64,000 bases of DNA, taken from the NCBI RefSeq assembly GCF_001686925.1, contig NZ_LVEN01000044.1, forward strand, positions 248,001-312,000, in the 5' to 3' direction. Under the pieces are notes generated by a model. That model saw only the letters and a list, made by a program, of their open reading frames with translations, made no database searches and was not told the origin of the DNA. Source of the stretch: Flavobacterium piscis (lineage in GTDB: Bacteria; Bacteroidota; Bacteroidia; Flavobacteriales; Flavobacteriaceae). Made by a program: the position numbers and the translations under genes. Shown here in pieces: positions 2,907 to 34,601 of this stretch (within the stretch, counting starts at the first letter, position 1; every line of letters begins with the position of its first letter).

Positions 2907-3983
2907 ATGGAATTTTTTTGGTACGTTGTTTTAATGGGAATTCTGGCCGTTTATATTGTATTAGACGGTTACGATTTTGGAGCAGGAATTATTCATTTAT
3001 TTTTTGCGAAAGAAGAAAAAGATAAAAAAGCAATTACAAGCGCTATTGGTCCGTTTTGGGATGCGAACGAAGTTTGGATTATTGCTGCGGGAGGTGTTTT
3101 GTTTTTTGCTTTCCCCACTTTATATGCGTCATCTTTCAGCGGATTTTATTTGCCGTTGATTATGATTTTATGGTTGTTGATTTTCCGTGCGATTGGTCTT
3201 GAAATGCGCGGGCAAGTGCATCATCCTATGTGGGAAGCGATTTGGGATAAAGCTTTTGGGATCGCCAGTTTGCTTTTGGCTTTATTCTTCGGGATTGCTT
3301 TGGGGAATATTGTTCGTGGTGTAAACTTAGGAATGGTAACCAACGGTGTTTCGACTCAGGAAGCACATTTTTTCTTTTTGCCTTTATGGAATCCAACTTT
3401 TAGTCCGCAGGCGAATGAGTTGGGAATTATTGATTGGTTCACACTTTTTCTGGGAATTGTGAGTGTTGTTGCGCTGACAATTCATGGTGCGAACTGGATT
3501 ATTTATAAAACGAATTCGGCATTGAATCCAAAACTGAAAAATGTAGTTTTTAAACTAAATATTGTTTTATTGGTTTTAGTTTGTATTTCGCTGCAAATCT
3601 GGCATTTTATTGAGCCAAAACCGTTTCATAATTTCGTCGAGAATCCAATTCTTTGGTTTTTTCCGTTAATGACTTTTGTTGGCATTTTAGGTTTGTTTAA
3701 AGTTCGTTCCTGGCAAAAAGACGGAATGGGATTTTTGTTTTCGACTTTGTTTCTGGTTGGAGGATTTGCTTCAACGGCGGTTTCGATTTTTCCGAATGTT
3801 TTGCCTTCAACTAATAATGTCAATCCGTCATTGACTATTTATAATACTGCTGCCGGAGAATATGGATTAAACGCCGGATTGAGCTGGTTTTTTATCGCTT
3901 TGTTTCTGGTAATTATTTATTTTATTATCCAGTACAGAGTTTTTAGCGGGAAGATGGATGATGTTGGGTATGGAGAACATTAA
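2907..3983 (+). CDS. cydB: Cytochrome bd quinol oxidase subunit II
   Basis: The 358-residue polytopic partner of CydA. The N-terminal DGYDFGAGI motif and the FWDANEVW stretch are CydB signatures, and about eight hydrophobic segments follow. It lies 2 nt after cydA and is surely co-transcribed with it; a strong hairpin with a T tract follows the stop. No small CydX-like gene was recognised behind it. Confidence 0.96.
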   Translation: MEFFWYVVLMGILAVYIVLDGYDFGAGIIHLFFAKEEKDKKAITSAIGPFWDANEVWIIAAGGVLFFAFPTLYASSFSGFYLPLIMILWLLIFRAIGLEMRGQVHHPMWEAIWDKAFGIASLLLALFFGIALGNIVRGVNLGMVTNGVSTQEAHFFFLPLWNPTFSPQANELGIIDWFTLFLGIVSVVALTIHGANWIIYKTNSALNPKLKNVVFKLNIVLLVLVCISLQIWHFIEPKPFHNFVENPILWFFPLMTFVGILGLFKVRSWQKDGMGFLFSTLFLVGGFASTAVSIFPNVLPSTNNVNPSLTIYNTAAGEYGLNAGLSWFFIALFLVIIYFIIQYRVFSGKMDDVGYGEH

Positions 3984-6576: not shown

Positions 6577-6607
6577 CTTTGTCGAAGTTCAAAACTTTGA
6601 CGAAGAT
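6577..6607. repeat. Short inverted repeat, TTTGTC-AAGTTCAAAACTTTGAC type
   Basis: CTTTGTCGAAGTT and AACTTTGACGAAG are separated by CAA. It is the same design as the perfect 15-bp inverted repeat at 44288-44320, so it appears to be a dispersed repeat. Confidence 0.5.
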
Positions 6608-6647
6608 TACACTACAAGTAAACTAAATCTGTGAGAAACAAAAAAAC

Positions 6648-11121: not shown

Positions 11122-11189
11122 TGTAACATTAAGTTAAAAACATCAACTAATATTTTAATCAATTTATCATCAAAATCTTAAAATCATTT

Positions 11190-13061
11190 ATGAAAAAACA
11201 ATCAATCATACTGCTCCTTACAGTCTTTGCTTTTTTAACCCAAAACAGCTTTGCCCAAGAACTTTATATGCCAAGAAATATAAAAGAGGCTTACAAAAAA
11301 GGTACGCGTTCTATAGACGGAAAACCTGGAAAAAACTATTGGCAAAATCATGGAAAATATACCATGGATATTTCGGTAGATCCTAAAACAAGACTTGTCA
11401 GCGGAACAGAAACTATCGTTTACGAAAATAATAGCAATGATACTTTAAGGAATTTAGTTGTTCGATTTGTAAATAATCTGCATAAACCATCTTCACCGCG
11501 AAGCGGAACTGTAAGTGATGATTTTTTGAGTGATGGATTGACCATTACTTCTTTAAAAATTGAAAGTGAAATCTATAAGGAAGATGCACGAAGCTGGGGT
11601 ACGGTTGGGAATGTAAAAATGAAAAAAGGTATTCCTCCTCATTCTAAAGCTACAATTAATATCGATTGGAATTATCCTTTGTCTAAAGAAAGCGGAAGGG
11701 AAGGACAGATCGATGAAACTACTTTTTTTGTAGCTTATAGTTATCCTCGTGTTAGTGTTTTTGATGATTACAACGGTTGGGACAGATTGCCACATACAGA
11801 TCGTCAGGAATTTTATAATGATTTTAATGACTATGTATTTTCTGTAAAAGCACCTAAAAATTATGTGGTGTATGCAACGGGAGATTTCTTAAATCCTGAC
11901 GAAGTTTTGCAACCCGAGTTTGCAGCGCGTTTGAAAAAATCATATGTAACAGATGAAATTTTACATATTGCAAATGAGACTGAACTAAAAAGCAGATTAG
12001 TAACGAAACAAAATGAATGGAATGTATGGAAATTCGAAGCGCAGAATATCTCAGATGTTTGTTTTGGGTTAAGTGATCACTATTTATGGGATGCCAGCAG
12101 TGTTGTGGTGGATAAAAAAACAAATCGCCGCGCGAGTGTGCAGGCAGCCTATGATATAAAAGGAACCGATTTTGTAAATTCGGTAAAAAACAATCAATAT
12201 GCTTTAGACTTCTTTTCGAACAATTGGCCGGGAGTACCGTATCCATTTTCTAAAATGACTGCTTTTCAGGGTTTTGCAGATATGGAATATCCTATGATGT
12301 GTAACGACTCGCAAATGGGAGATCCTGTTTTTGCACAACTGGTTCAGGATCATGAAGTGGCACATACTTATTTTCCGTTTTATATGGGAATCAACGAAAC
12401 ACGTTATGCTTTTATGGATGAAGGATGGGCAACAACTTTTGAATACTTAATTGGAATTGCAGAACACGGAAAAGAAGCCGCTGATAAATTTTATAAAGAA
12501 TTTAGAGTTCAGAATTATATCAAAGATGAATCTACAGAAGAAGATCAGCCTATCATTTCGATGTCTACACAGGTTTCAGGTTCCGGATACGGAAATAATT
12601 CCTATGGTAAAGCATCACTTTCTTATTTGGCTTTAAAAGATTTGCTTGGCGATGATCTGTTCAAAAAATCCCTTCATGCTTATATGGATAACTGGAATGG
12701 TAAACATCCTATTCCGTGGGATTATTTTAATTCTATGAATACAGCTTCAGGACAAAATCTGAATTGGTTTTTCAATAACTGGTTTTTTACGAATAATTAC
12801 ATAGATCTTTCAATAAAAAATGTCGCTAAGAATGTAGTTTCAGTAGAAAATGTTGGTGGTTTTGCAGTTCCTTTTGATGTAAATGTTGTTTATGCAGATA
12901 ATTCGACAGAAACTTTACACCAGACTCCTGAGATCTGGAAAGCCAATCAAAAAAGAACTGCTATTGCATTAAAAAACAAAAAACAAATCAAGCAAGTAAC
13001 TTTAGACGGAGGCATTTTTATGGATGCCACGCCATCAAATAATACTTTGATTATAAAATAA
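11190..13061 (+). CDS. Secreted M1-family zinc aminopeptidase
   Basis: A 623-residue protein with a cleavable signal peptide (MKKQSIILLLTVFAFLTQNSFA). The M1 catalytic motif is present: HEVAH at 388-392, followed 19 residues later by the third zinc ligand E411 (DEGWATTFEY). The exopeptidase GAMEN equivalent reads ADMEY a little upstream. The N-terminal half is the usual beta-sandwich. Family members trim N-terminal residues from peptides in the periplasm or outside. The ACT-domain gene follows after 9 nt and is probably co-transcribed. Confidence 0.92.
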   Translation: MKKQSIILLLTVFAFLTQNSFAQELYMPRNIKEAYKKGTRSIDGKPGKNYWQNHGKYTMDISVDPKTRLVSGTETIVYENNSNDTLRNLVVRFVNNLHKPSSPRSGTVSDDFLSDGLTITSLKIESEIYKEDARSWGTVGNVKMKKGIPPHSKATINIDWNYPLSKESGREGQIDETTFFVAYSYPRVSVFDDYNGWDRLPHTDRQEFYNDFNDYVFSVKAPKNYVVYATGDFLNPDEVLQPEFAARLKKSYVTDEILHIANETELKSRLVTKQNEWNVWKFEAQNISDVCFGLSDHYLWDASSVVVDKKTNRRASVQAAYDIKGTDFVNSVKNNQYALDFFSNNWPGVPYPFSKMTAFQGFADMEYPMMCNDSQMGDPVFAQLVQDHEVAHTYFPFYMGINETRYAFMDEGWATTFEYLIGIAEHGKEAADKFYKEFRVQNYIKDESTEEDQPIISMSTQVSGSGYGNNSYGKASLSYLALKDLLGDDLFKKSLHAYMDNWNGKHPIPWDYFNSMNTASGQNLNWFFNNWFFTNNYIDLSIKNVAKNVVSVENVGGFAVPFDVNVVYADNSTETLHQTPEIWKANQKRTAIALKNKKQIKQVTLDGGIFMDATPSNNTLIIK

Positions 13062-25569: not shown

Positions 25570-26922
25570 TTAGGATAAAAAATCCTTAAACCACAATCCC
25601 GAATGTTTTATGGTGCGTTGCTGCGTGTCGAAATCGACATGAATTAAGCCGAATCTTGCGTTGTAACCTTCAGCCCACTCAAAGTTATCGGTAAGGCTCC
25701 ATACAAAATAACCTTCTACATTTAAACCGTCTTTTCTGGCCTTTAGAATTTGCTCTAAATGATCCTGAATATAATGAGTACGTTTGATATCGTAAACTTT
25801 TCCGTTGCTTAGAGTGTCGGGAAAAGCGGCGCCGTTTTCGGTAATGATAATTTTTTTAATGCCTTTATATTCGTTGAATTTTTTAAGGACGTGATATAAT
25901 GCGGGAGGATAAACCTCCCAACCCATTTCGGTTGAAATTACATTTCTCTTTTCGGCACTTATAAGTTCAGCACCTATGTACGGAATCAGCATTGATGATT
26001 TTACAACTTCGCGAGTATAACATTGCAGGCCTATAAAATCAAAATCAAAAGCCAGATTATCGAGATCACCGTCTAAAATATAATTATTAAGTTTTTTTAA
26101 TACCGGCAAATCAGTTTGCGGATAACCCAATCCCAGGATAGGTTCTATAAAAGTTCTGTTCAGTAAAGTGTCTACACGTTTTGCGGCTTCAATATCTTTA
26201 GGGCTTTCTGTTGCGGCTTCAATATGCGTACAGGAGAAAGTTGTACCAATATTAGCATTCGGAATCCTGTTTCGCACTATTTTCGCGCCTGCTGCAGTAG
26301 CCAGCGTTACGTGATGCATGGCTTTAAGATAATTGGTGATACCTTTTTTGCCCGGAGCATGAATACCCAGAAAATATCCTGCGCCTGTAAAAACAGAGGG
26401 TTCGTTGATCACCATCCAGTTTTTTACGCGATCTCCAAAATATTGTGCACAAACTTCTACATACTCTGAAAACCAGGAAACTGATTCGCGATTGGTCCAG
26501 CCACCTTTTGTCTCTAAGGCATGTGGCAGATCCCAATGATAAAGTGTTATCCAGGGTTCTATTCCGGACGCAAGTAAAGAGTCGATGATTTTGTTGTAAT
26601 ATTCTATTCCGGCTTGATTTACAGGATGAGTTCCTGTAGGCATAATTCTGGGCCAACTGATAGAGAACCTAAAATTCGGAATATTTAATTCTCGTATTAA
26701 GTCAATATCGTTTTGGTACGAATTATAAAAGTCACAAGCGGTTAAAGCATGATGTCCGTTTTTAATTTTTCCTTTTTGCGATGTAAAAACATCCCAAATA
26801 GAAGAACCTTTTCCATCGGCATCGTGTGCTCCCTCAATTTGGAAAGCGGCGGTCGAAACACCCCACAAGAAATCATCTCCAAATTGGTCTTTGTTCAAAA
26901 ATGAGTTCTCTATTTTATTCAT
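25570..26922 (-). CDS. Glycoside hydrolase family 1 beta-glucosidase
   Basis: A 450-residue GH1 enzyme. It has the N-terminal FLWGVSTAAFQIEGA and SIWDVF signatures, the acid/base glutamate E174 in NWMVINEPSVF, and the nucleophile E362 in IIITENGAAF. The C-terminal EGYFVWSLTDNFEWAEGY completes the sugar-binding wall. There is no signal peptide, so it is probably cytosolic and hydrolyses beta-linked di- and oligosaccharides after uptake. It is monocistronic; no SusCD-like genes are adjacent. Confidence 0.95.
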   Translation of the reverse strand: MNKIENSFLNKDQFGDDFLWGVSTAAFQIEGAHDADGKGSSIWDVFTSQKGKIKNGHHALTACDFYNSYQNDIDLIRELNIPNFRFSISWPRIMPTGTHPVNQAGIEYYNKIIDSLLASGIEPWITLYHWDLPHALETKGGWTNRESVSWFSEYVEVCAQYFGDRVKNWMVINEPSVFTGAGYFLGIHAPGKKGITNYLKAMHHVTLATAAGAKIVRNRIPNANIGTTFSCTHIEAATESPKDIEAAKRVDTLLNRTFIEPILGLGYPQTDLPVLKKLNNYILDGDLDNLAFDFDFIGLQCYTREVVKSSMLIPYIGAELISAEKRNVISTEMGWEVYPPALYHVLKKFNEYKGIKKIIITENGAAFPDTLSNGKVYDIKRTHYIQDHLEQILKARKDGLNVEGYFVWSLTDNFEWAEGYNARFGLIHVDFDTQQRTIKHSGLWFKDFLS

Positions 26923-27134
26923 TCAAATAAGTTTTCCTTTATTTTTATTGTAATTTATTAATGAAGGAAAGACGATTGCATAGCTCTTAAAAACAGCCAT
27001 TCTTTGAACGAAACCAGAAAATTTAGGTTGAAGAATTTCATAACGTTTAGTTTTAATCAAATTAATAAAACTAATGTGAATTTAACGTAAAGTCATTATT
27101 ATCAAATGATTAAATAAAAAAAATGGAAAGATTT

Positions 27135-27347
27135 TTAATCTTCCCATCCGCAAAGTGTAAGGCCTAAACCTTTTGCCTGTTTCAGGGATGTTTTTACAGT
27201 TCCGTGATTACAAGATGATAAGCCGCGGCAGGTTTCATTAAAATGATACTTTTTTGCACCGGTTGGGCCACAAATATAAACAGCGGCTTCAGGAGGCATA
27301 AAAGAAGTTAAAAAAACAAATAGTAAGAGTAAGGAATATTTTATCAT
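27135..27347 (-). CDS. Small secreted cysteine-containing protein
   Basis: A 70-residue product with an N-terminal signal peptide (MIKYSLLLLFVFLTSFMPPEAA) and a short mature domain with four cysteines: VYICGPTGAKKYHFNETCRGLSSCNHGTVKTSL...LTLCGWED. The pattern (YICxxxGAKKYH, NxTCRGLSxC, LGLTLCGWED) is a recurrent small Bacteroidota protein of unknown function, as far as I recall. It follows the lipoprotein gene by 5 nt, so the two form an operon. The cysteines could form disulfides or bind a metal. Confidence 0.75.
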   Translation of the reverse strand: MIKYSLLLLFVFLTSFMPPEAAVYICGPTGAKKYHFNETCRGLSSCNHGTVKTSLKQAKGLGLTLCGWED

Positions 27348-27352
27348 AGTTT

Positions 27353-27763
27353 TTATTTGACAATTAATTGGTATTTATTTCCTTGTAAATCGGTGGCATT
27401 TAGTTTTCCGTACGCAACCCATTCAGTGTTAATTTCAATATCAGGAATAGTATCGTTAAGTAAAATCCCGGCACCGTATTTTCCCTGAACATTGATATTT
27501 CCGAAAACCGAATCGCCGTCAATGTCTATTCCTTTCACATCATAATTGTATTCGTATTGCCCGGAATGTCCGGTTCTGTATTGGTATTGGTAAGTGTCGT
27601 TGACATGATACGTTTTTGCTTCTTCGGCTTTTATTGTTTTTCGATCATCGGGCGTAATTACTTGTTTTAAAAACGAATTAATTTCCGGTGGAGGAGGAGC
27701 AGAAGCTTTTTTACAGGAAAAAAACGTAATTAATAAAAATAAGATGAGGTAGTTTTTTTGCAT
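27353..27763 (-). CDS. Lipoprotein of unknown function
   Basis: A 136-residue product with lipoprotein signal MQKNYLILFLLITFFSC (lipobox FFSC). A PPPPEI segment follows, then a beta-rich domain (YQYQYRTGHSGQYEYNYDVKGIDIDGDSVFGNINVQGKYGAG...EWVAYGKLNATDLQGNKYQLIV). It is the first gene of a two-gene unit with the small cysteine protein 5 nt behind it. No function is known to me. Confidence 0.72.
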   Translation of the reverse strand: MQKNYLILFLLITFFSCKKASAPPPPEINSFLKQVITPDDRKTIKAEEAKTYHVNDTYQYQYRTGHSGQYEYNYDVKGIDIDGDSVFGNINVQGKYGAGILLNDTIPDIEINTEWVAYGKLNATDLQGNKYQLIVK

Positions 27764-27799
27764 AGGCGTTTTGAATAAAAAAAATTATTTAGTCAAATG

Positions 27800-27838
27800 T
27801 AAACTCATTTAGAATCGATATTTTATGGAAATCCGTAA
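27800..27838. repeat. Direct repeat flanking the ATPase-nuclease cassette, left copy
   Basis: TATTTTATGGAAATCCGTAA at 27819-27838 is identical to 32124-32143. The 19 nt before it also align, with seven differences that are all transitions. Offset between the copies is 4305 bp. Confidence 0.75.
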
Positions 27839-27874
27839 ATAAACAATGATATAGCATAAATTTTATTGGCTCAA

Positions 27875-28906
27875 TCAAATTTCATTAATATCCTTTTCGA
27901 TTAATTTAAACTTATCTTTTACATCATCTCCTGTATAAAAATCTAATAAATCTTTCTTTGTTAATGTTCCAATATTTAAAAAACGTTTTAAATATTCTTG
28001 ATTAAATTCCATTAATAATATTGACTTTTCTAATTGTTTTAGAATTGCTTTATTATTTTCAATATTGTTTATTACTAATGATTTAATAGAAAGTATTTCA
28101 TTGATGTCTTTGATAATTCTATTTACAATCATTGCAAGAACATTTTTATCAAGTTCAATTTCTTTTGAATTTAAAGCGATATCACGTGCAAGCATATAGG
28201 CAATGGCAAGATTAGAATAATCTCCTTTTTGTGAGTTTATGATAGCAATAAAACCTACGCTTGGAATGTAACCAACATTATCAAAATTTTTAAGTATTGA
28301 ATTGTCAATTAATGAAATATCAAAAACAATTAAACTCACTTTTGAATCCCTGTTTGCTTGTGTTTCTATTAATTGACTCCAAGCTGTATCACTTTTTCTT
28401 GTGAATATTTCTTTATTTTCAATTTCTCCAAAGCGAATGCTTTTATCAAACTTACATTCAATCGCAATTTTTAAATCAGACATTCCATTTACTTCGCAAA
28501 TAATATCTCCAGTTTTGTTTCTAGGAATATTTCCACTGGTATTTCCAGTTAAGAAAGCCCTGTCCTTTAATCTCTTTTCTGAGAAATAATTGTTGAGATA
28601 GTCTGCAATATCATCTTCAGCAAGTGAACCTTTTATTGTCGATTTATAAAAAAGTTCTTTTTTCATTTCGAAAATCATTTTGAGACTTTCAAGTTCTGTT
28701 CCCAATTCATTATTAGTTTTCGCTAAGAATGAAGAAATTCTATCTTCCATTAATGCTAAAACTCCAATATAAATTGCACGTAAAAGTTTTTCATCTCTTT
28801 CGCTTACAGAAAGGTTATCAAAGTAATTGAAAACGATTTGGTTTTCTATTTCAAACTCTTGGATTTCTAAGCGTTTGAGTTGCTGGTTTAGTTTTATTGT
28901 TGACAT
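27875..28906 (-). CDS. Putative PD-(D/E)xK nuclease of a candidate defence cassette
   Basis: A 343-residue protein. Residues 93-152 look like a restriction-endonuclease core: a helix with a conserved glutamate (KGSLAEDDIADYLNNYF, E97), then GDIICEVNG (D134), then the strand LKIAIECKFDK giving E150-x-K152. A following strand, SKVSLIVFDISL, fits the fold. The long N-terminal helix and C-terminal coiled region are unassigned. The gene starts 2 nt after the ABC ATPase stop, so it is surely co-expressed. The nuclease role is inferred from motif spacing only. Confidence 0.6.
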   Translation of the reverse strand: MSTIKLNQQLKRLEIQEFEIENQIVFNYFDNLSVSERDEKLLRAIYIGVLALMEDRISSFLAKTNNELGTELESLKMIFEMKKELFYKSTIKGSLAEDDIADYLNNYFSEKRLKDRAFLTGNTSGNIPRNKTGDIICEVNGMSDLKIAIECKFDKSIRFGEIENKEIFTRKSDTAWSQLIETQANRDSKVSLIVFDISLIDNSILKNFDNVGYIPSVGFIAIINSQKGDYSNLAIAYMLARDIALNSKEIELDKNVLAMIVNRIIKDINEILSIKSLVINNIENNKAILKQLEKSILLMEFNQEYLKRFLNIGTLTKKDLLDFYTGDDVKDKFKLIEKDINEI

Positions 28907-28908
28907 GA

Positions 28909-31218
28909 TTAGTTTATTGTTGAAGCTTCTAATGCATCATAATGTAGTTTGTCATTTGTTTTTATTAATTCTATAAGATCATCGCATGCATGTTCTATAT
29001 CTGAAATAAAATTACTGTGCGTTTGTAATCGATCAAGGTTATTAAAATGACTGAAGTAATGCAATAATTTAAGAATACGTTTTGATTCTTGTTTTCCAAA
29101 AACAACTTCGGCTCTCCCATCTACTTCCTCTTTCATATTAGGATATTTTGTTAATGTATACATTTCTAAAAATCTTCTTACTATATTAGGTATTGTAAAC
29201 AATTTTGGAGATAATGTCCTGTCTGGATTCTTTGTAAACTCTAGTATTTCACCAAATAAGAAATGATATTCAGATGATATTGTACTAAATATAGCGGGTA
29301 ATTTTTGGATTTCAGCTTCATTTTTATTTCTTGAAATAAAATATTTTGATTCCTTATTATTAAATGCTCCTTTTTTGGGTAATTCCTTTAGTAAATTTAA
29401 AAACTCTAAATTATGTGTTGAAACAAAAAGCTGTTTACATTTGAGAACCCACTGTAGGTTTTGAGGTTTATTAGGATCTATGATTTTTTTATCAAAAAAA
29501 ATTTCCTTCAATAATGAATTAATTTGAAAAATATGATTACTATCCAAACTTGATATTGGATCATCAATGTATATGATATAATTATTTAATTTACCCTTTT
29601 CTTCTATACTTTTTAGATTAACAAAAAAATGTGAAAAAGAAATTGCCATTTTCTCCCCTTCGCTTAGATTTTCTGCTAATTCGCTTCCTCTCATTAAATT
29701 AAATTTTTTTGTTGATGTATTTAATCTAATTTCTATATCATCTCTACTTAAAAAACTCTGGATAAAAGAATTGAATAATATTGATCCTGCAGCATCACTT
29801 TCTTTAGATGAGTTAAGTTGAAATATTTCATTTGTATATTTCTTAACTTTTTGATCTAATATTTCTAAATGATTTTTAGCTTTTTCATATTTATTTTTTT
29901 TAGATAAATATTTTGTATTTTTTAAATATATTGCAACTAAATGATTTTTATAATGATCTCTCTCCTTAGTCATAATTTCATTGAAGTCATCAAAAAAATT
30001 ATTATTTTCTTTAATAAGTTGATTAAAAGAATCAACACATTTTAAAGTATTAATATTACCATTTGTTTTAAAATTTATTTTGACGTTTGAATAAATTTTA
30101 CTGGTATATTTCGATTGTAAAATCTTTGTAATTTTATTTAAATGTTTTTTGTAATTATAAATTTCCTTTGAAATACTAGTTTCTAATTTTGTAAACTGAT
30201 GTTGAAAGTTTTCATTTAAATCATTTATGCTTAAAGGTATATTTAATTCTTTAAGTTTAACTTCTTCTTCCTCAATTAGAAAAAGAATGTCATCAATATC
30301 TTGCTTTAGTTTAGACGATTCATTTTGAAAGTAATTTAATAAATTTTTATACTTGGCATTACTTATTTGATTTCCACAAAATTTGCAATTATCATTCAAT
30401 TCGTGAATCTCTAATCCTTTTTTTGCCCAATAATATGCTTTAGGATCATCATCTAAAATTTTTATTACATTAGATTTAGAAGGAATTGATGACAGCGCCG
30501 CTTTTGTTAATTCAATTATTTGTTCATAAGAACTTATAAAATTGATGTTTTCAATTTTAGGCTTAGCATTTTCAATTTTTACAGTTTTTACAATTTTTTC
30601 TAGATCTGGCTTTGATTTAATAATATGTTTTTCTAAGTCAGGAATAATTTTGTCTCTAATTTTTTTTAAATGTGCTTTATTGAATTCTATAAGGCTTGAA
30701 AAAGAATCGTTTTTAATTCTACCAGCTTCAATAGTAAATAGATTTTCGAAATCTTCATATTGTTGCATTATGATTTCTAAGTTTTCCTTTTTACCTTTAA
30801 TAGATGAGGTACCAATAATTAAATCTATTAAGTTATTAAGTCTGTCTATTTCAGAAGAAATTTTAGCATTATTTCCAACTTCAAAAAAAATTGCATTTAT
30901 ATTCTCATCAAATTCCCATCGCAAATTTTCTTTAGCATACTCTGCATTAAAAACTAATACTTCATAAGGAAATGTGACTAAGTTGGTTTTATCATAACTA
31001 ATATTGTCACACGATAATTTAAACGATCCATTTTTGTAGCTATTATGTATAGTCTTATCTCTCAAAGACGAAAATATTCTTGATAATGTTGTCTTTCCCG
31101 AATAATTCCATCCATAAATAATATTTTTTTCTTTAAAATTTTCAATATCTATAATGTTATTCCATTCGAAATTTTTATAGATGCCAAAATTTTTGATAAA
31201 ATCAATTTTTGTTATCAT
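28909..31218 (-). CDS. AAA_13-type ABC ATPase resembling RloC/PrrC anticodon nucleases
   Basis: A 769-residue ATPase. The Walker A is GWNYSGKT (36-43), the ABC signature LSEGEK (518-523), Walker B IIYIDDP (548-554) and the switch His602 (STHN). The middle is long coiled coil carrying a CKFC pair (Cys278, Cys281), like the zinc hook of RloC. The C-terminus has IPNIVRRFLE (R681, E685) and a later LHYFSH (H720, H724). The R-x3-E then His order resembles the PrrC catalytic triad R320, E324, H356. So it may be a DNA-damage or phage-triggered tRNA nuclease, or only an ATPase working with the adjacent nuclease gene. Confidence 0.75.
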   Translation of the reverse strand: MITKIDFIKNFGIYKNFEWNNIIDIENFKEKNIIYGWNYSGKTTLSRIFSSLRDKTIHNSYKNGSFKLSCDNISYDKTNLVTFPYEVLVFNAEYAKENLRWEFDENINAIFFEVGNNAKISSEIDRLNNLIDLIIGTSSIKGKKENLEIIMQQYEDFENLFTIEAGRIKNDSFSSLIEFNKAHLKKIRDKIIPDLEKHIIKSKPDLEKIVKTVKIENAKPKIENINFISSYEQIIELTKAALSSIPSKSNVIKILDDDPKAYYWAKKGLEIHELNDNCKFCGNQISNAKYKNLLNYFQNESSKLKQDIDDILFLIEEEEVKLKELNIPLSINDLNENFQHQFTKLETSISKEIYNYKKHLNKITKILQSKYTSKIYSNVKINFKTNGNINTLKCVDSFNQLIKENNNFFDDFNEIMTKERDHYKNHLVAIYLKNTKYLSKKNKYEKAKNHLEILDQKVKKYTNEIFQLNSSKESDAAGSILFNSFIQSFLSRDDIEIRLNTSTKKFNLMRGSELAENLSEGEKMAISFSHFFVNLKSIEEKGKLNNYIIYIDDPISSLDSNHIFQINSLLKEIFFDKKIIDPNKPQNLQWVLKCKQLFVSTHNLEFLNLLKELPKKGAFNNKESKYFISRNKNEAEIQKLPAIFSTISSEYHFLFGEILEFTKNPDRTLSPKLFTIPNIVRRFLEMYTLTKYPNMKEEVDGRAEVVFGKQESKRILKLLHYFSHFNNLDRLQTHSNFISDIEHACDDLIELIKTNDKLHYDALEASTIN

Positions 31219-31227
31219 ATTTTATGG

Positions 31228-31476
31228 TTAAAATTCGACTTTCCATCTAGGGCTATACATATTCTCTGTAATTTTTATGTCATTAATTGAAGAAATAATA
31301 CCCCCTCTTATTGCTCCTTTATTTAAATCATGAGCAAAAAATATTTCGATTCCTCCTTTAATTCTAAAACTATAAGGTTCAACTTCTCTCAATCCTTCAT
31401 TGCTTCCATCTTTTTCTGTATAATCGATGAAAATTATTTTTAAATTTTGACCTGCATATATAATTGAATCTTTCAT
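31228..31476 (-). CDS. Small WYL-like domain protein of the cassette
   Basis: An 82-residue protein. The stretch REVEPYSFRIKGGIEIFFAHDLNKGAIRGGIISSINDIKITEN resembles the second half of WYL domains, an SH3-like ligand-binding fold common in regulators of prokaryotic defence. There is no DNA-binding domain. It lies 2 nt after the KTSC-like gene and 9 nt before the ATPase gene, inside a tight operon. It may sense a nucleotide-type ligand for the ATPase. The family call is tentative. Confidence 0.55.
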   Translation of the reverse strand: MKDSIIYAGQNLKIIFIDYTEKDGSNEGLREVEPYSFRIKGGIEIFFAHDLNKGAIRGGIISSINDIKITENMYSPRWKVEF

Positions 31477-31478
31477 AG

Positions 31479-31694
31479 TTAATCATATTTAAATTTTACA
31501 TGAGAATTAATATAACTGTTCAATCCAGAACCTGCTGAAGCTAATCTTTTCATATTTTCGACATTAACTTGTCCTGCTTTTCTATAGCTATATTGATAAG
31601 TACTTCCTGAAGAAAATCTTACCCTTATGTAATCTGATCCAATTTCATAAGCTGAAACTCCCGATCCACTGCTTCTATTTGCATATCTTTCCAT
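31479..31694 (-). CDS. Small KTSC-like domain protein of the cassette
   Basis: A 71-residue protein: SSGSGVSAYEIGSDYIRVRFSSGSTYQYSYRKAGQVNVENMKRLASAGSGLNSYINSHVK. It has the KTSC-domain layout: a short beta meander with F-x-S/x-GSTYxY, then a helix and a small-residue-rich stretch ending in an N-x-I segment. KTSC domains are small, of unclear role, and occur near nucleases and replication or repair genes. It is second in the five-gene cassette, with 2-nt spacing on both sides. Confidence 0.6.
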   Translation of the reverse strand: MERYANRSSGSGVSAYEIGSDYIRVRFSSGSTYQYSYRKAGQVNVENMKRLASAGSGLNSYINSHVKFKYD

Positions 31695-31696
31695 AA

Positions 31697-31984
31697 TTAT
31701 ATCTCAGCATAAATTTCAGACATTCCTTGATCACCTCTTTTATAATCATTTCGAGTACTAAAAGTATCATTAGTAACTTCTATGTCGTCGGCTTTTCTAA
31801 GGTCATATATTTTCCATCCCATTTTTCCAGATGATGAAAATCCGTCAATTTGATAAGCTCTTATTGCTTCATTCCCTGCAGTAGTTTTTCCGTAACAATG
31901 TGGTTCAACGACTCTTGATTTTCCTTCGTATGAAAACTCAATGATGTTTTGATTTTCGATTGCTTCAATAATTTGATTGTTCAT
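31697..31984 (-). CDS. Small WYL-domain-like protein, first gene of the cassette
   Basis: A 95-residue protein: IIEAIENQNIIEFSYEGKSRVVEPHCYGKTTAGNEAIRAYQIDG, then GWKIYDLRKADDIEVTNDTFS. The pattern of a strand, R-x-VEPHxYG, NExxRAYQxxG and GWKxYDLxK is that of short WYL-like proteins without a helix-turn-helix. As first gene it could sense a ligand or modulate the cassette. It is preceded by an operator-like inverted repeat at 32043-32063. Confidence 0.6.
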   Translation of the reverse strand: MNNQIIEAIENQNIIEFSYEGKSRVVEPHCYGKTTAGNEAIRAYQIDGFSSSGKMGWKIYDLRKADDIEVTNDTFSTRNDYKRGDQGMSEIYAEI

Positions 31985-32042
31985 AATTTTGGTTTTATAG
32001 TTAATAGATTAATTTTCTAAATCTAATTAGAATTGAGTTACT

Positions 32043-32063
32043 CAGGTAGAGTACTAATACCTG
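32043..32063 (-). promoter_or_regulatory. Operator-like inverted repeat before the cassette
   Basis: CAGGTA (32043-32048) and TACCTG (32058-32063) form a 6-bp inverted repeat with a 9-nt spacer, about 60 nt upstream of the first cassette gene. It could bind an autoregulator; the binder is unknown. Confidence 0.3.
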
Positions 32064-32104
32064 ATTTTGTTTTACCTAATTATTTTTTTTAAACAATTCA
32101 AACT

Positions 32105-32143
32105 TAAACCTATTTGAAACCAGTATTTTATGGAAATCCGTAA
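32105..32143. repeat. Direct repeat flanking the ATPase-nuclease cassette, right copy
   Basis: Second copy of the repeat at 27800-27838, in the same orientation: 32 of 39 positions identical, with the last 20 perfect. It lies outside the first cassette gene and just before the terminator of the response regulator operon. Confidence 0.75.
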
Positions 32144-32170
32144 TCCGTATTTTTTTAAATTTTAAGCCAT

Positions 32171-32193
32171 AAAAAAAGCCCCCGAAGGAGCTC
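32171..32193 (-). terminator. Terminator of the kinase/response-regulator operon
   Basis: On the minus strand AGCTCC and GGGGCT pair around a TTCG tetraloop (one G-U pair), followed by seven Ts. It lies 28 nt past the regulator's stop. Confidence 0.8.
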
Positions 32194-32221
32194 TATAGAA
32201 TTAATAATTTATAACGAGATT

Positions 32222-32890
32222 TTAAATAATCCCCATATCTTTTGCAATAGAAACCAGATGAACGGTATTATTTGCTTTAAAAAAGTCTTTTAGTTTAGAA
32301 AGTCTTTTTTCCATTGCACTTTTGCTGTTGGGTTTGATGCCTAAGTCTTTAAAGATTTGTATGATTTCGTCTTGTGCAGTTCCAGATGATAGGTGTTTTA
32401 AGATTTGAATGTCTAAATCATCGATTTCAAAATTGCTTTTTTCCTGAAGCGCCGCAGCAACTTCATAAGAAATAAATTTTTGATCTGAAGTCGAAGTGAT
32501 ATGAATTGCCTTTTTTAGATCTTCAATACTATTTCGGCCTTTTAATACAAAGCCATCAATATCAGCATTATCAAAAAGAGACTTAATGCGATGGCTTTTA
32601 TCTTCTACAGAATAGGCTATAATTTTAATATCTGGCTGTAATTCCCTAACTTTTTCAACAAGTTCATCGCCACATGTAATCTGTACATCACGATGGTCTT
32701 TTTTAAAAGAAAGATCACTAATTAATAAGTCATAAGGTTCATTATCCAGAATGGCTTTTCGTATTTTTAGAAAAGCATCATCACAATATTTTGCATGCTG
32801 AAAATTGACAATATCTAAGTTTTTTAAGGTTTGCTCGATTCCTAAATTTATATCTTCAAGATCTTCGGCAATTATTACTTTTTTAAACAT
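32222..32890 (-). CDS. Response regulator of the TPR-kinase module
   Basis: A 222-residue protein. The receiver domain keeps the acidic pocket (E9, D10) and the phosphoacceptor D59 in PYDLLISDLSF. The C-terminal part (about 150-222, DLDIQILKHLSSGTAQDEIIQIFKDLGIKPNSKSAMEKRLSKLKDFF) is a divergent LuxR/NarL-type helix-turn-helix. The start lies 7 nt downstream of the stop of the kinase at 32898, so they form a two-component pair. The distant paralogous kinase at 22076 may also signal to it. Confidence 0.88.
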   Translation of the reverse strand: MFKKVIIAEDLEDINLGIEQTLKNLDIVNFQHAKYCDDAFLKIRKAILDNEPYDLLISDLSFKKDHRDVQITCGDELVEKVRELQPDIKIIAYSVEDKSHRIKSLFDNADIDGFVLKGRNSIEDLKKAIHITSTSDQKFISYEVAAALQEKSNFEIDDLDIQILKHLSSGTAQDEIIQIFKDLGIKPNSKSAMEKRLSKLKDFFKANNTVHLVSIAKDMGII

Positions 32891-32897
32891 AAGGCTT

Positions 32898-34601
32898 TTA
32901 TTTAGGCAGAGTTATTTTTACTTTGAATCCTTTATCAGGTTCAGTGTCAAAAGTAATAGTTCCTTTTATGGCCAGAATACGGTTTTCCATATTTTGCAAA
33001 CCATTTTTTGCAATTTGATTTTTTTGGCAGCCTTTTCCGTTATCCGTATAATCAATAAAAATAATTTTTCCGTTGCTGTCAAACTTTACAACAACCAATG
33101 TGGCCTGACTATGTTTTGTCATGTTGACCATTAACTCTTGCAGAATTCTGTGAATAGCGACTTTTTTTATATTATCGACTAATTCCCAATTCACTTTTTC
33201 GATATTATTTATAATGACGTTTGTAATGTTGGTATTATAAGTCGAAAGCATTTCTTTTAAGTTACCGGCATAATTTGTTGTAACATCAATAGTACTATTT
33301 TCCTGCGAAATTCTGCGAACGCGGGAATAAATATGATCTAGTTTTTGAATCAGCGTTTCCTTTGCATTCTCGCTGCTTAAGGGCTGCGTCTGGGTAAAAG
33401 TCATGGCATAAAAAACATCGTTTGCCAGTTCATCATGAATATCTTTGGCAATACGGGTTTCGGTATCGTAGGCGGTTTTTATTTTTTCGATTCGGCCTCT
33501 GTTTCTATAATAGCGTATTAGAATAACAATAACAATTATCAAGAAGATCACCCCAATTCCGGCCACTACTTTTTGATATTTTTGTTCCTGTATCGACAAT
33601 AAATTCTCTGCTTTTTCTAATCGCAGTTTTTGATTTTCGTCTTTTTCTTTTTTAGAATCGTATTTAATTTTGGCAAACTTGTTTTTAAAGTTGTTGCGAA
33701 CCTTTATAATACTATCATTTATAGTAATATACTTTTGTGCATATTGTGCATTTTTATTTCCGGAATCATTAGAGATTAAAAACGATAAAGCTTTCAAACG
33801 TTCATCGACACTATTAAATCTTGTAGCGATTTCATATGCCGCCTGAGCATATTGATTAGATTTTTTAGAATCAGTTTTTAAAAAATATTCTGCGAGGTGT
33901 AAATTGCTTTCGATGCTTCCGTAAAAATCATCAATTTGTTTTCTCAATTGATAACCTTCGTTCATTAGGGAAAGTCCTTTTTCGGTTATTCCATTTTTAA
34001 AATAAGCAAACCCTAAATTGTCAAGAATCCGTGCTTTTCTAACAGGATCTTTGCCAAGAGACTTTTCGTTTAGAATAGGTTCTAAGATAGTTATGGCTTT
34101 ATCATATTTTTTTTGATGAGTATATACAACAGCAATATTATTTAAAGGAGATTGTTTTGATCCTTCATCTGTGCAATCTTTTAGCGCTTCTTTATAATAA
34201 AAAATAGCATCATTATAAAGAGAAAGTTCTTTATCTGCAATTCCAAAGAAATTATTTATCGAAGCACTATATACATCTTTCTTTTTAAGATAGGGTAAAG
34301 CTTCTGTTAGTGTTTCTTTACTGCCATAATAATCGCCGTTTATTTGTTGAATAGAGGCCATTTGAATAAGGTTGTAAACAATATTTACACTGTCTTTAAT
34401 TGTTTCAAAATTTATTTTTGATTTATTAAAAGAATAAAAAGCACTATTAAAATTCTTATTCTGGACATTTGTTATTCCAATTTTTTGAAATTCGACAGCT
34501 ACTTTTATAATGGATGTTCTATCTACAGGCTTTATGTTTTCTTTTTTGCAGGAAAGAAAACATAAAAAGATAATACAACAAAAAAACGGGGATCGTAACA
34601 T
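32898..34601 (-). CDS. TPR-containing membrane sensor histidine kinase, module copy 2
   Basis: A 567-residue paralogue of the kinase at 22076: an N-terminal lipobox-like signal (MLRSPFFCCIIFLCFLSC), tetratricopeptide repeats, the shared KVRNNFKNKFAKIKYD segment, a coiled coil, one membrane helix (IGVIFLIIVIVILIRYYRN), then the NarL-type core with phosphoacceptor RIAKDIHDELANDV, N-box ELMVNMTKHSQAT, DNGKGC and GLQNMENR. The response regulator follows after 7 nt and the tiny lipoprotein lies 63 nt upstream. The N-terminus suggests lipid anchoring before a normal membrane crossing, which would be unusual for a kinase. Confidence 0.92.
   Translation of the reverse strand: MLRSPFFCCIIFLCFLSCKKENIKPVDRTSIIKVAVEFQKIGITNVQNKNFNSAFYSFNKSKINFETIKDSVNIVYNLIQMASIQQINGDYYGSKETLTEALPYLKKKDVYSASINNFFGIADKELSLYNDAIFYYKEALKDCTDEGSKQSPLNNIAVVYTHQKKYDKAITILEPILNEKSLGKDPVRKARILDNLGFAYFKNGITEKGLSLMNEGYQLRKQIDDFYGSIESNLHLAEYFLKTDSKKSNQYAQAAYEIATRFNSVDERLKALSFLISNDSGNKNAQYAQKYITINDSIIKVRNNFKNKFAKIKYDSKKEKDENQKLRLEKAENLLSIQEQKYQKVVAGIGVIFLIIVIVILIRYYRNRGRIEKIKTAYDTETRIAKDIHDELANDVFYAMTFTQTQPLSSENAKETLIQKLDHIYSRVRRISQENSTIDVTTNYAGNLKEMLSTYNTNITNVIINNIEKVNWELVDNIKKVAIHRILQELMVNMTKHSQATLVVVKFDSNGKIIFIDYTDNGKGCQKNQIAKNGLQNMENRILAIKGTITFDTEPDKGFKVKITLPK

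Follow-up and report, generated by a model that had tools for sequence, protein, structure and literature searches.

PADLOC lists PDC-S06 as a candidate AAA_13 system, the PDC-S label standing for a single-gene candidate. SIR2-HerA has been described as a two-gene system that does not include the nuclease discussed below; the same source mentions, as an unpublished observation, HerA-KTSC-endoDNase loci with the endoDNase in lieu of the sirtuin (PMC9503650). Here we analyse a five-gene cassette in a stretch of 64,000 nucleotides (nt) from Flavobacterium piscis (contig NZ_LVEN01000044.1), called the window throughout and numbered from its first letter. An earlier note on this DNA had proposed a candidate mobile five-gene defence system bracketed by a repeat of 39 base pairs (bp). 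The five minus-strand open reading frames (ORFs) were found with the lengths and the spacing of 2–9 nt that it gave, the gaps being 2, 2, 9 and 2 nt. In order of transcription they encode the small WYL-like protein WYL1 (95 amino acids (aa), 31697–31984), the small KTSC-like protein KTSCb (71 aa, 31479–31694), a second small WYL-like protein, WYL2 (82 aa, 31228–31476), an AAA_13 ABC-type ATPase (769 aa, 28909–31218) and a predicted PD-(D/E)xK nuclease, hereafter NUC (343 aa, 27875–28906).

We consider it fairly probable, judging from sequence comparison, that this cassette is one state of a modular and probably anti-phage operon, in which NUC would act as a common co-effector nuclease. The suggested layout is one or more small KTSC and/or WYL proteins, then an exchangeable core, which in this strain is the AAA_13 ATPase, and then NUC as the constant gene. 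In such an operon the core would sense infection and/or bring a toxic activity of its own, the small proteins may be nucleic-acid- or ligand-binding adaptors coupling core to nuclease, and NUC would cut DNA as the co-effector common to different cores.

NUC, its partners and the small proteins

Partners were surveyed in 86 distinct NUC loci, comprising the best 80 of 134 relatives from a GTDB contig scan with NUC patterns, the window and five further loci (L numbers below are our locus identifiers). These loci, picked largely by NUC similarity, come mostly from Bacteroidota, with a few other phyla. Partner labels are single-linkage clusters of ORF calls, five rows being assigned by hand (L051, L075, L086, L088 and L106); Pfam and PADLOC were run on cluster representatives, while HsdM, HsdS and other context names were given by eye. 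The nearest partner of NUC was HerA in 34 loci (32 with SIR2), OLD in 21, AAA_13 in 16 and the protein class P820, described below, in six; SMC-like and PDC-S46-like proteins followed with three loci each, a reverse transcriptase and an AlbA-KTSC protein with one each, and one locus had none. Fragments were counted with their class (AAA_13 in L047, L075 and L080, HerA in L042 and L057), and L092 and L102, where OLD is separated from NUC by a reverse transcriptase, were labelled OLD. By their representatives the OLD partners are of the AAA_15/Toprim type and the reverse transcriptases are AbiA-like or UG39, the one in L102 matching UG39 and that of L092 falling in the same cluster. NUC lies on the same strand as the directly upstream gene in 86 of 86 loci, starts between −40 and +20 nt from it in 80 and overlaps it in 19. 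The defence role proposed earlier is thus supported by homology and context: the ATPase matches PDC-S06, NUC relatives accompany SIR2-HerA, OLD and reverse transcriptases, and seven loci sit inside type I restriction-modification operons. In these seven (L028, L031, L077, L089, L092, L096 and L102) HsdM-HsdS on one side and HsdR on the other flank the core-NUC unit; HsdR of L089 was confirmed by Pfam and the other Hsd names were assigned by eye or cluster.

P820 deserves a separate description. In L037, L045, L048, L068, L069 and L097 a protein of 803–826 aa (618 aa in L048) takes the place of the ATPase and is followed by a protein of 322–356 aa before NUC (820 and 344 aa in the representatives). 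Its representative had no Pfam match and a weak PADLOC match to LmuB (3e-11), and together with its partner it may be a candidate new defence core. None of the six P820 proteins fits a strict Walker A pattern; as this pattern also missed all three SMC-like and all three PDC-S46-like proteins, the result for P820 is a weak negative.

The most direct view of an exchange is provided by Flavobacterium sp. CF108, which has the same site with the same borders, KTSCb being 86% and NUC 93% identical to the copies of the window. An OLD gene (AAA_15 4e-35, Toprim 3e-18) stands there between KTSCb and NUC, where the window has WYL2 and the ATPase. Homology of the two DNAs ends at 31471 and resumes at 28911, which is 5 bp ahead of the start of NUC, leaving 28912–31470 (minus strand) without DNA match. 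The exchange at this site is real and, by DNA comparison, takes the form of a replacement of the middle gene or genes between KTSCb and NUC. In the six other NUC loci of the genus just one upstream gene is related to the ATPase of the window (48%). The exact five-gene order of the window was met in one of the 86 loci, and a fixed five-gene system is therefore rejected; what persists is NUC with small KTSC/WYL genes. Two cores precede one NUC in three loci, namely SIR2-HerA then OLD in L064 and L082 and SIR2-HerA then P820 in L068.

The tree of NUC requires at least 39 changes of partner class, the minimum conceivable being 8 and the mean for shuffled labels 45.5, with values as low in 1 of 200 shuffles; partner classes are, therefore, only slightly clustered. 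Host families change 19 times on the same tree (minimum 11, shuffled 24.2, none of 200 shuffles as low), though this test is rough, since 32 of the 86 rows have no family and one family is split in two labels. When two loci of the same partner class were compared, the NUC proteins resembled each other more closely than the partners did in 85% of pairs for HerA and in 97–100% for SIR2, OLD, AAA_13 and P820, a difference that is partly a product of selection because the loci were picked by NUC. At the level of sequence NUC is thus near-invariant and remains in place while unrelated cores in front of it are replaced.

The small proteins go with NUC. A KTSC or WYL domain was found within six ORFs upstream of it in 75 of 86 loci, and of the 11 exceptions four are truncated at the end of a contig; members of the WYL2 cluster occur in seven NUC loci and those of the WYL1 cluster in 16. 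AAA_13 loci have such genes in 14 of 16 cases with NUC and in none of four without it, and OLD loci in 16 of 21 and none of four, the NUC-less loci of both classes being viewed with about 1.5 kb on each side. A fifth AAA_13 locus, L155, has none upstream, but its contig ends inside the ATPase, before a NUC gene could follow, and it was excluded from the NUC-less count. KTSCb is 86–93% identical in CF108 and LHD-80, both of which have OLD cores. In L038 and L066 KTSC is fused to the C-terminus of HerA and the separate KTSC gene is missing; AlbA_2 proteins (L051 and five further members of its cluster) and a PIN_8 protein (L057) likewise carry KTSC at their C-terminus. A KTSC-NUC fusion suspected in L173 from a long frame proved to be two adjoining genes.

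Family names proposed in the earlier note fared differently when Pfam was run on the window proteins alone. AAA_13 (PF13166, E = 1e-96) is a clear assignment, whereas KTSC on KTSCb (0.0019), WYL on WYL2 (0.0047) and WYL1 (0.24), and PDDEXK_15 on NUC (2e-5, 25 bits against a cut-off of 27) all remained under the Pfam cut-offs. These three labels are supported by profiles of relatives and by the NUC model, WYL weakly. A profile of KTSCb with its relatives matches the solved KTSC protein 7x8c (2e-19) and the C-terminus of HerA 8wiv (3e-15), and a joint profile of both WYL clusters gave a weak match to the WYL protein 7qfz (0.011). Foldseek with the KTSC model returned nothing significant, though the sequence search does find solved KTSC proteins, so this result is little informative. 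KTSC is described as DNA-binding in one paper (PMC9503650), and in another its function is called unknown, possibly RNA-binding (PMC8541194). KTSC-like proteins (window 31479–31694; L082, 6625–6846) also match phrog_17428 (1e-21), phrog_24656 (2e-11) and phrog_3292 (3e-20), of which phrog_24656 is a virion structural protein; the domain is, then, carried by phages as well.

Residues 1–766 of the ATPase align to positions 1–782 of the 790 in the PDC-S06 profile (9.1e-131). It bears a Walker A motif, GWNYSGKT, at residue 36, CKFC at 278, LSEGEK at 518, IYIDDP at 549, SSLD at 556 and STHN at 600. A pattern scan of genome contigs for this protein returned 38 stretches that fit the pattern, none of them a relative, and no sequence match to it was found in the Protein Data Bank (PDB) at E ≤ 0.01.

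In NUC the residues E97, D134, E150, K152 and Q178 are invariant in 86 of 86 proteins, and we take the E...D...ExK residues to be catalytic by motif; such conservation suggests catalysis. Its AlphaFold2 model has a mean predicted local distance difference test score (pLDDT) of 74.7 and a predicted template modelling score (pTM) of 0.46. Residues 84–248 of the model match Bax1 (Z 9.6), Can2 (9.0) and McrC (8.3) in VIA-align. By the program's own guidance proteins that are not related often give a best Z of 7–8, and Rab and receiver folds, which are unrelated to nucleases, reach about 6 here. The seven best rows (Z 8.0–9.6, 9–18% identity) are Bax1 twice, Can2 twice, Cdn1, McrBC and BsaWI, all of the PD-(D/E)xK fold class; the N- and C-terminal parts of NUC lie outside these matches. 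The best Foldseek match with the model was not significant (E = 0.37), and the PDB held no sequence match at E ≤ 1. By motif and by modelled core fold NUC is probably a member of the PD-(D/E)xK superfamily, and it is a predicted nuclease.

Its distribution is patchy. Seven of the 199 genus genomes searched carry NUC (83–93% identity outside the own genome), as do 10 of 397 from the family, the own one included (72–85% for the others), with no weaker matches at E ≤ 1e-5 in either set; 375 genomes of the phylum gave two full copies, one of them that of the own genome, and a fragment of 33 residues. Among the best 80 of 134 relatives of the GTDB scan identity to the copy of the window was 71–93%. 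NUC was not found in the phage records searched. The plasmid search yielded one record, pPZ02 of Paracoccus zhejiangensis (61%), where NUC stands behind SIR2-HerA-KTSC and is annotated as a hypothetical protein, and in a viral collection it occurs behind the same genes (58%) on one of 22 candidate contigs.

Possible roles of NUC

Several observations weigh against NUC as a common co-effector of exchangeable cores. The partner classes do show slight clustering on its tree, and distances of NUC and partner correlate (Mantel r 0.54, p 0.014 for AAA_13; 0.23 for HerA and 0.19 for OLD), so part of the pairing is inherited together. Choice of the loci by NUC similarity inflates the conservation of NUC relative to its partners. 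Cores were also registered without it, in five of six SIR2-HerA, four of seven AAA_13 (one more being cut by the contig end) and four of four OLD matches, hence NUC is not obligatory and adds to cores rather than completing them; in L088 it stands, conversely, without a recognisable core. KTSC is present in three of five SIR2-HerA loci that have no NUC and is, therefore, not NUC-specific, and in L144, one of the related sites considered below, the KTSCb gene occurs without NUC. The pTM of only 0.46, the Foldseek result and the Z values that unrelated folds approach belong to the same side. Finally, the activities of all parts of the cassette, anti-phage function and NUC catalysis included, are predicted ones.

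A wider version of the co-effector role is tentative. Here NUC with KTSC/WYL would form a general effector chassis, KTSC or WYL domains being the connection to unrelated cores (SIR2-HerA, OLD, ABC ATPases, reverse transcriptases, and Schlafen- and PIN-KTSC proteins). Bacteria would then renew their immunity by replacing just the core gene at its locus, and a single NUC may work for several KTSC-tagged cores, perhaps even those of other loci.

The main rival of the co-effector role, which we regard as unlikely, is that NUC with KTSC/WYL is a brake, an antitoxin-like or guard unit, and no effector, that holds many different toxic cores inactive or senses phage inhibitors. An add-on need not give toxicity where the partners bear effector domains of their own (SIR2, OLD-Toprim, reverse transcriptase) and occur without NUC, and WYL proteins are ligand-binding regulators in other defence loci (PMC9503650). 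Invariance of the nuclease residues in all 86 proteins, however, suggests catalysis, which would be needless for a pure brake.

It is improbable that NUC is a selfish or recombination-promoting, homing-like nuclease, driving the exchange of cores and taking no part in defence. Such a nuclease would fit the replacement that ends beside NUC in CF108, and also a gene that is patchy in the family (10 of 397 genomes) and yet reaches several phyla, but it is opposed by the tight spacing or overlap with the core, by the link with KTSC/WYL and by the surroundings, which differ greatly between the individual loci viewed (type I restriction-modification operons, a plasmid, the site of the window). Simple neighbourhood within defence islands, which would bring NUC beside many systems merely through clustering of defence genes, is very improbable: the seven loci inside type I restriction-modification operons agree with it, whereas the fixed place directly 3' of the preceding gene, on its strand in every locus and within −40 to +20 nt in 80 of 86, and the swap of the core in situ with NUC kept in CF108 speak against it. 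Based on these comparisons we retain the co-effector role as the preferred interpretation.

Repeat copies and the genomic site

The 39-bp repeat reported earlier is present as described: its copies at 27800–27838 and 32105–32143 agree in 32 of their 39 positions, among them all of the final 20, and the seven differences are all transitions. An exact repeat of 20 nt arose in 1 of 100 Markov shuffles of 26501–33500, so the repeat exceeds chance. Each copy contains an operator-like 16-bp dyad, TTAYGGWTTTCCRTAA, and is followed by a box of the type TAnnTTTG, presumably the −7 box of Bacteroidota promoters. The upstream copy (32098–32143, minus strand), with its dyad at 32128–32143 and the box TAAGTTTG at 32099–32106, is the probable promoter of the cassette; the downstream one (27793–27838, minus strand), with the dyad at 27823–27838 and the box TACATTTG at 27794–27801, would serve an operon beginning with lipo136, a lipoprotein-like gene of 136 aa named by eye (27353–27763, minus strand). 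The distance from dyad to start codon is 75 bp for lipo136 and 159 bp for WYL1.

When the 81 bp that surround the downstream copy were searched against the own genome, the two copies were the sole matches at E ≤ 0.001, but the dyad occurs there seven times. Each of nine relatives has between 2 and 12 dyads, and a control pattern was found in none of these genomes. The box lies at offset 36 or 37 after the dyad in 29 of 32 copies. For 30 of the 60 dyad places in relatives it was registered, in either orientation, in 10 of 10 cases at the site and in 8 of 20 elsewhere, against a mean of 0.7 and a maximum of 3 in shuffles for all 30 places; a start codon follows the dyad by 64–76 bp in 13 of the 30.

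A lipo136 relative was found in 22 genomes, 13 of which were compared at the site itself. The neighbouring two-component operon pointed out earlier is a conserved border: each of the 13 sites has a histidine kinase, a response regulator and a lipo136 homologous to those of the window, with other cargo between them and NUC in none. In the window these are a TPR histidine-kinase-like gene (32898–34601, minus strand; TPR_12 and HATPase_c above cut-off) and a response-regulator-like gene (32222–32890, minus strand; Response_reg 2e-6, 28.3 bits against a cut-off of 30.2), with lipo136 as the opposite border. A terminator-like hairpin at 32175–32194 (minus strand) separates the response regulator from the cassette promoter, although with one found and 1.1 expected from shuffles it is weak alone. 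A truly empty site, with which the earlier note had suggested a comparison, was not found among the 13, all of which hold some cargo. Between response regulator and lipo136 at least one repeat copy (within four mismatches) was found in 11 of the 13 and two in 10; L148 has no copy, and the sole copy of L149 lies beyond lipo136.

On these data the most fitting interpretation of the repeat is a regulated promoter that is present twice, once for the cargo and once for the lipoprotein-like operon. Cargo blocks of this Flavobacterium site begin with the same dyad and TAnnTTTG promoter, the cargo varying between strains, and the neighbouring response regulator is the likeliest, yet unproven, reader of the dyad. 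Two copies at 10 of 13 sites with other cargo make the repeat no sign of mobility; a mobile five-gene element with the repeat as target-site duplication or attachment site is thus hardly credible, for all that the repeat is real and the site varies between strains. That reading of the repeat is rejected on these copies and on the promoter-like make-up, and the mobile element is also contradicted by the gene order found in one of 86 loci and by the lack of any integrase or transposase match (Pfam) in the five ORFs, the absence of an integrase having been stated in the earlier note.

Other places of the dyad were also viewed. In the own genome it lies upstream of an OLD-like gene that has a UvrD-like helicase gene behind it, as in Gabija (L177, dyad at 3940), and of another OLD-like gene (L178), and the second gene behind it is Mrr restriction-endonuclease-like in L179 and HNH in L176; the fifth place outside the site (L177, 14747) has no defence-like gene. 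In relatives (L180–L209) it also precedes, by eye, lipoprotein-looking genes and others. These positions may point to a regulon with defence operons among its members. Between the cassette promoter and WYL1 the leader (31985–32095) contains the hairpin sequence TCAGGTA...TACCTGA; L034 has DNA matches to the leader at 6580–6638 and 11166–11227, and a similar stretch was seen by eye in L176. Folding of the leader RNA was not significant (z −1.46). Another cargo of the site is a stand-alone HSDR_N nuclease-like protein of 351–355 aa (3e-14; L034, 10115–11170), 90–94% identical to the LHD-80 copy at six sites (L137, L138, L139, L140, L143 and L145), that is as conserved as NUC, and often with a dyad of its own 70–71 bp upstream.

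Relation to known systems

Several parts of what is reported here are already known: SIR2-HerA, OLD, PDC-S06 and PDC-S46 as PADLOC entries, and the HerA-KTSC-endoDNase loci as a remark. A literature search (open-licence PMC papers, titles and abstract openings) found no description of a nuclease common to these systems. If NUC is a shared co-effector, NUC with KTSC/WYL would mark new defence cores, the pair of 820 and 344 aa being one candidate, and renewal of defence operons by core swaps at one locus would become testable. The promoter dyad may offer a handle on the switching-on of such operons in Flavobacterium.

SIR2-HerA is the commonest partner of NUC in the sample, with KTSC separate or fused to HerA, and the solved HerA 8wiv bears a C-terminal KTSC like the fusions of NUC loci; the cassette of the window, however, has neither SIR2 nor HerA, and its genome has no HerA relative at E ≤ 1e-50. 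The HerA-KTSC-endoDNase loci resemble NUC loci in combining a KTSC protein, a predicted endoDNase and a HerA ATPase, but there the endoDNase replaces the sirtuin, whereas NUC co-occurs with SIR2 and with cores other than HerA. PDC-S06 is matched by the ATPase over its full length; unlike a single-gene candidate, this ATPase lies in an operon with KTSC/WYL and NUC, suggesting partners; none of the four NUC-less AAA_13 relatives has the KTSC/WYL genes. OLD of the Gabija GajA type (AAA_15 and Toprim) is the second commonest partner, but it is absent from the cassette and has a Toprim domain of its own.

Anticodon nucleases RloC and PrrC share with this cassette an AAA_13 ATPase with Walker and ABC motifs, and the CKFC at 278 corresponds to the CxxC hook, a feature of RloC; as to their C-terminal anticodon nuclease domain, the best stretch of the PrrC profile on the ATPase covers positions 76–262 of 372, which were taken as its ATPase part. 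Bax1, McrC and Can2 are the best structural matches of the NUC core, at 9–18% identity and with the N- and C-terminal parts of NUC uncovered, and Bax1 and McrC work with an ATPase partner (XPB and McrB, respectively). The WYL regulators CapW and BrxR, too, are an accessory common to different defence systems, but they are transcription factors, whereas NUC is a predicted nuclease accompanied by separate small WYL/KTSC proteins. Known modular systems mostly keep the sensor and vary the effector. Here this relation appears to be reversed, the predicted nuclease being constant and unrelated defence cores being exchanged before it.

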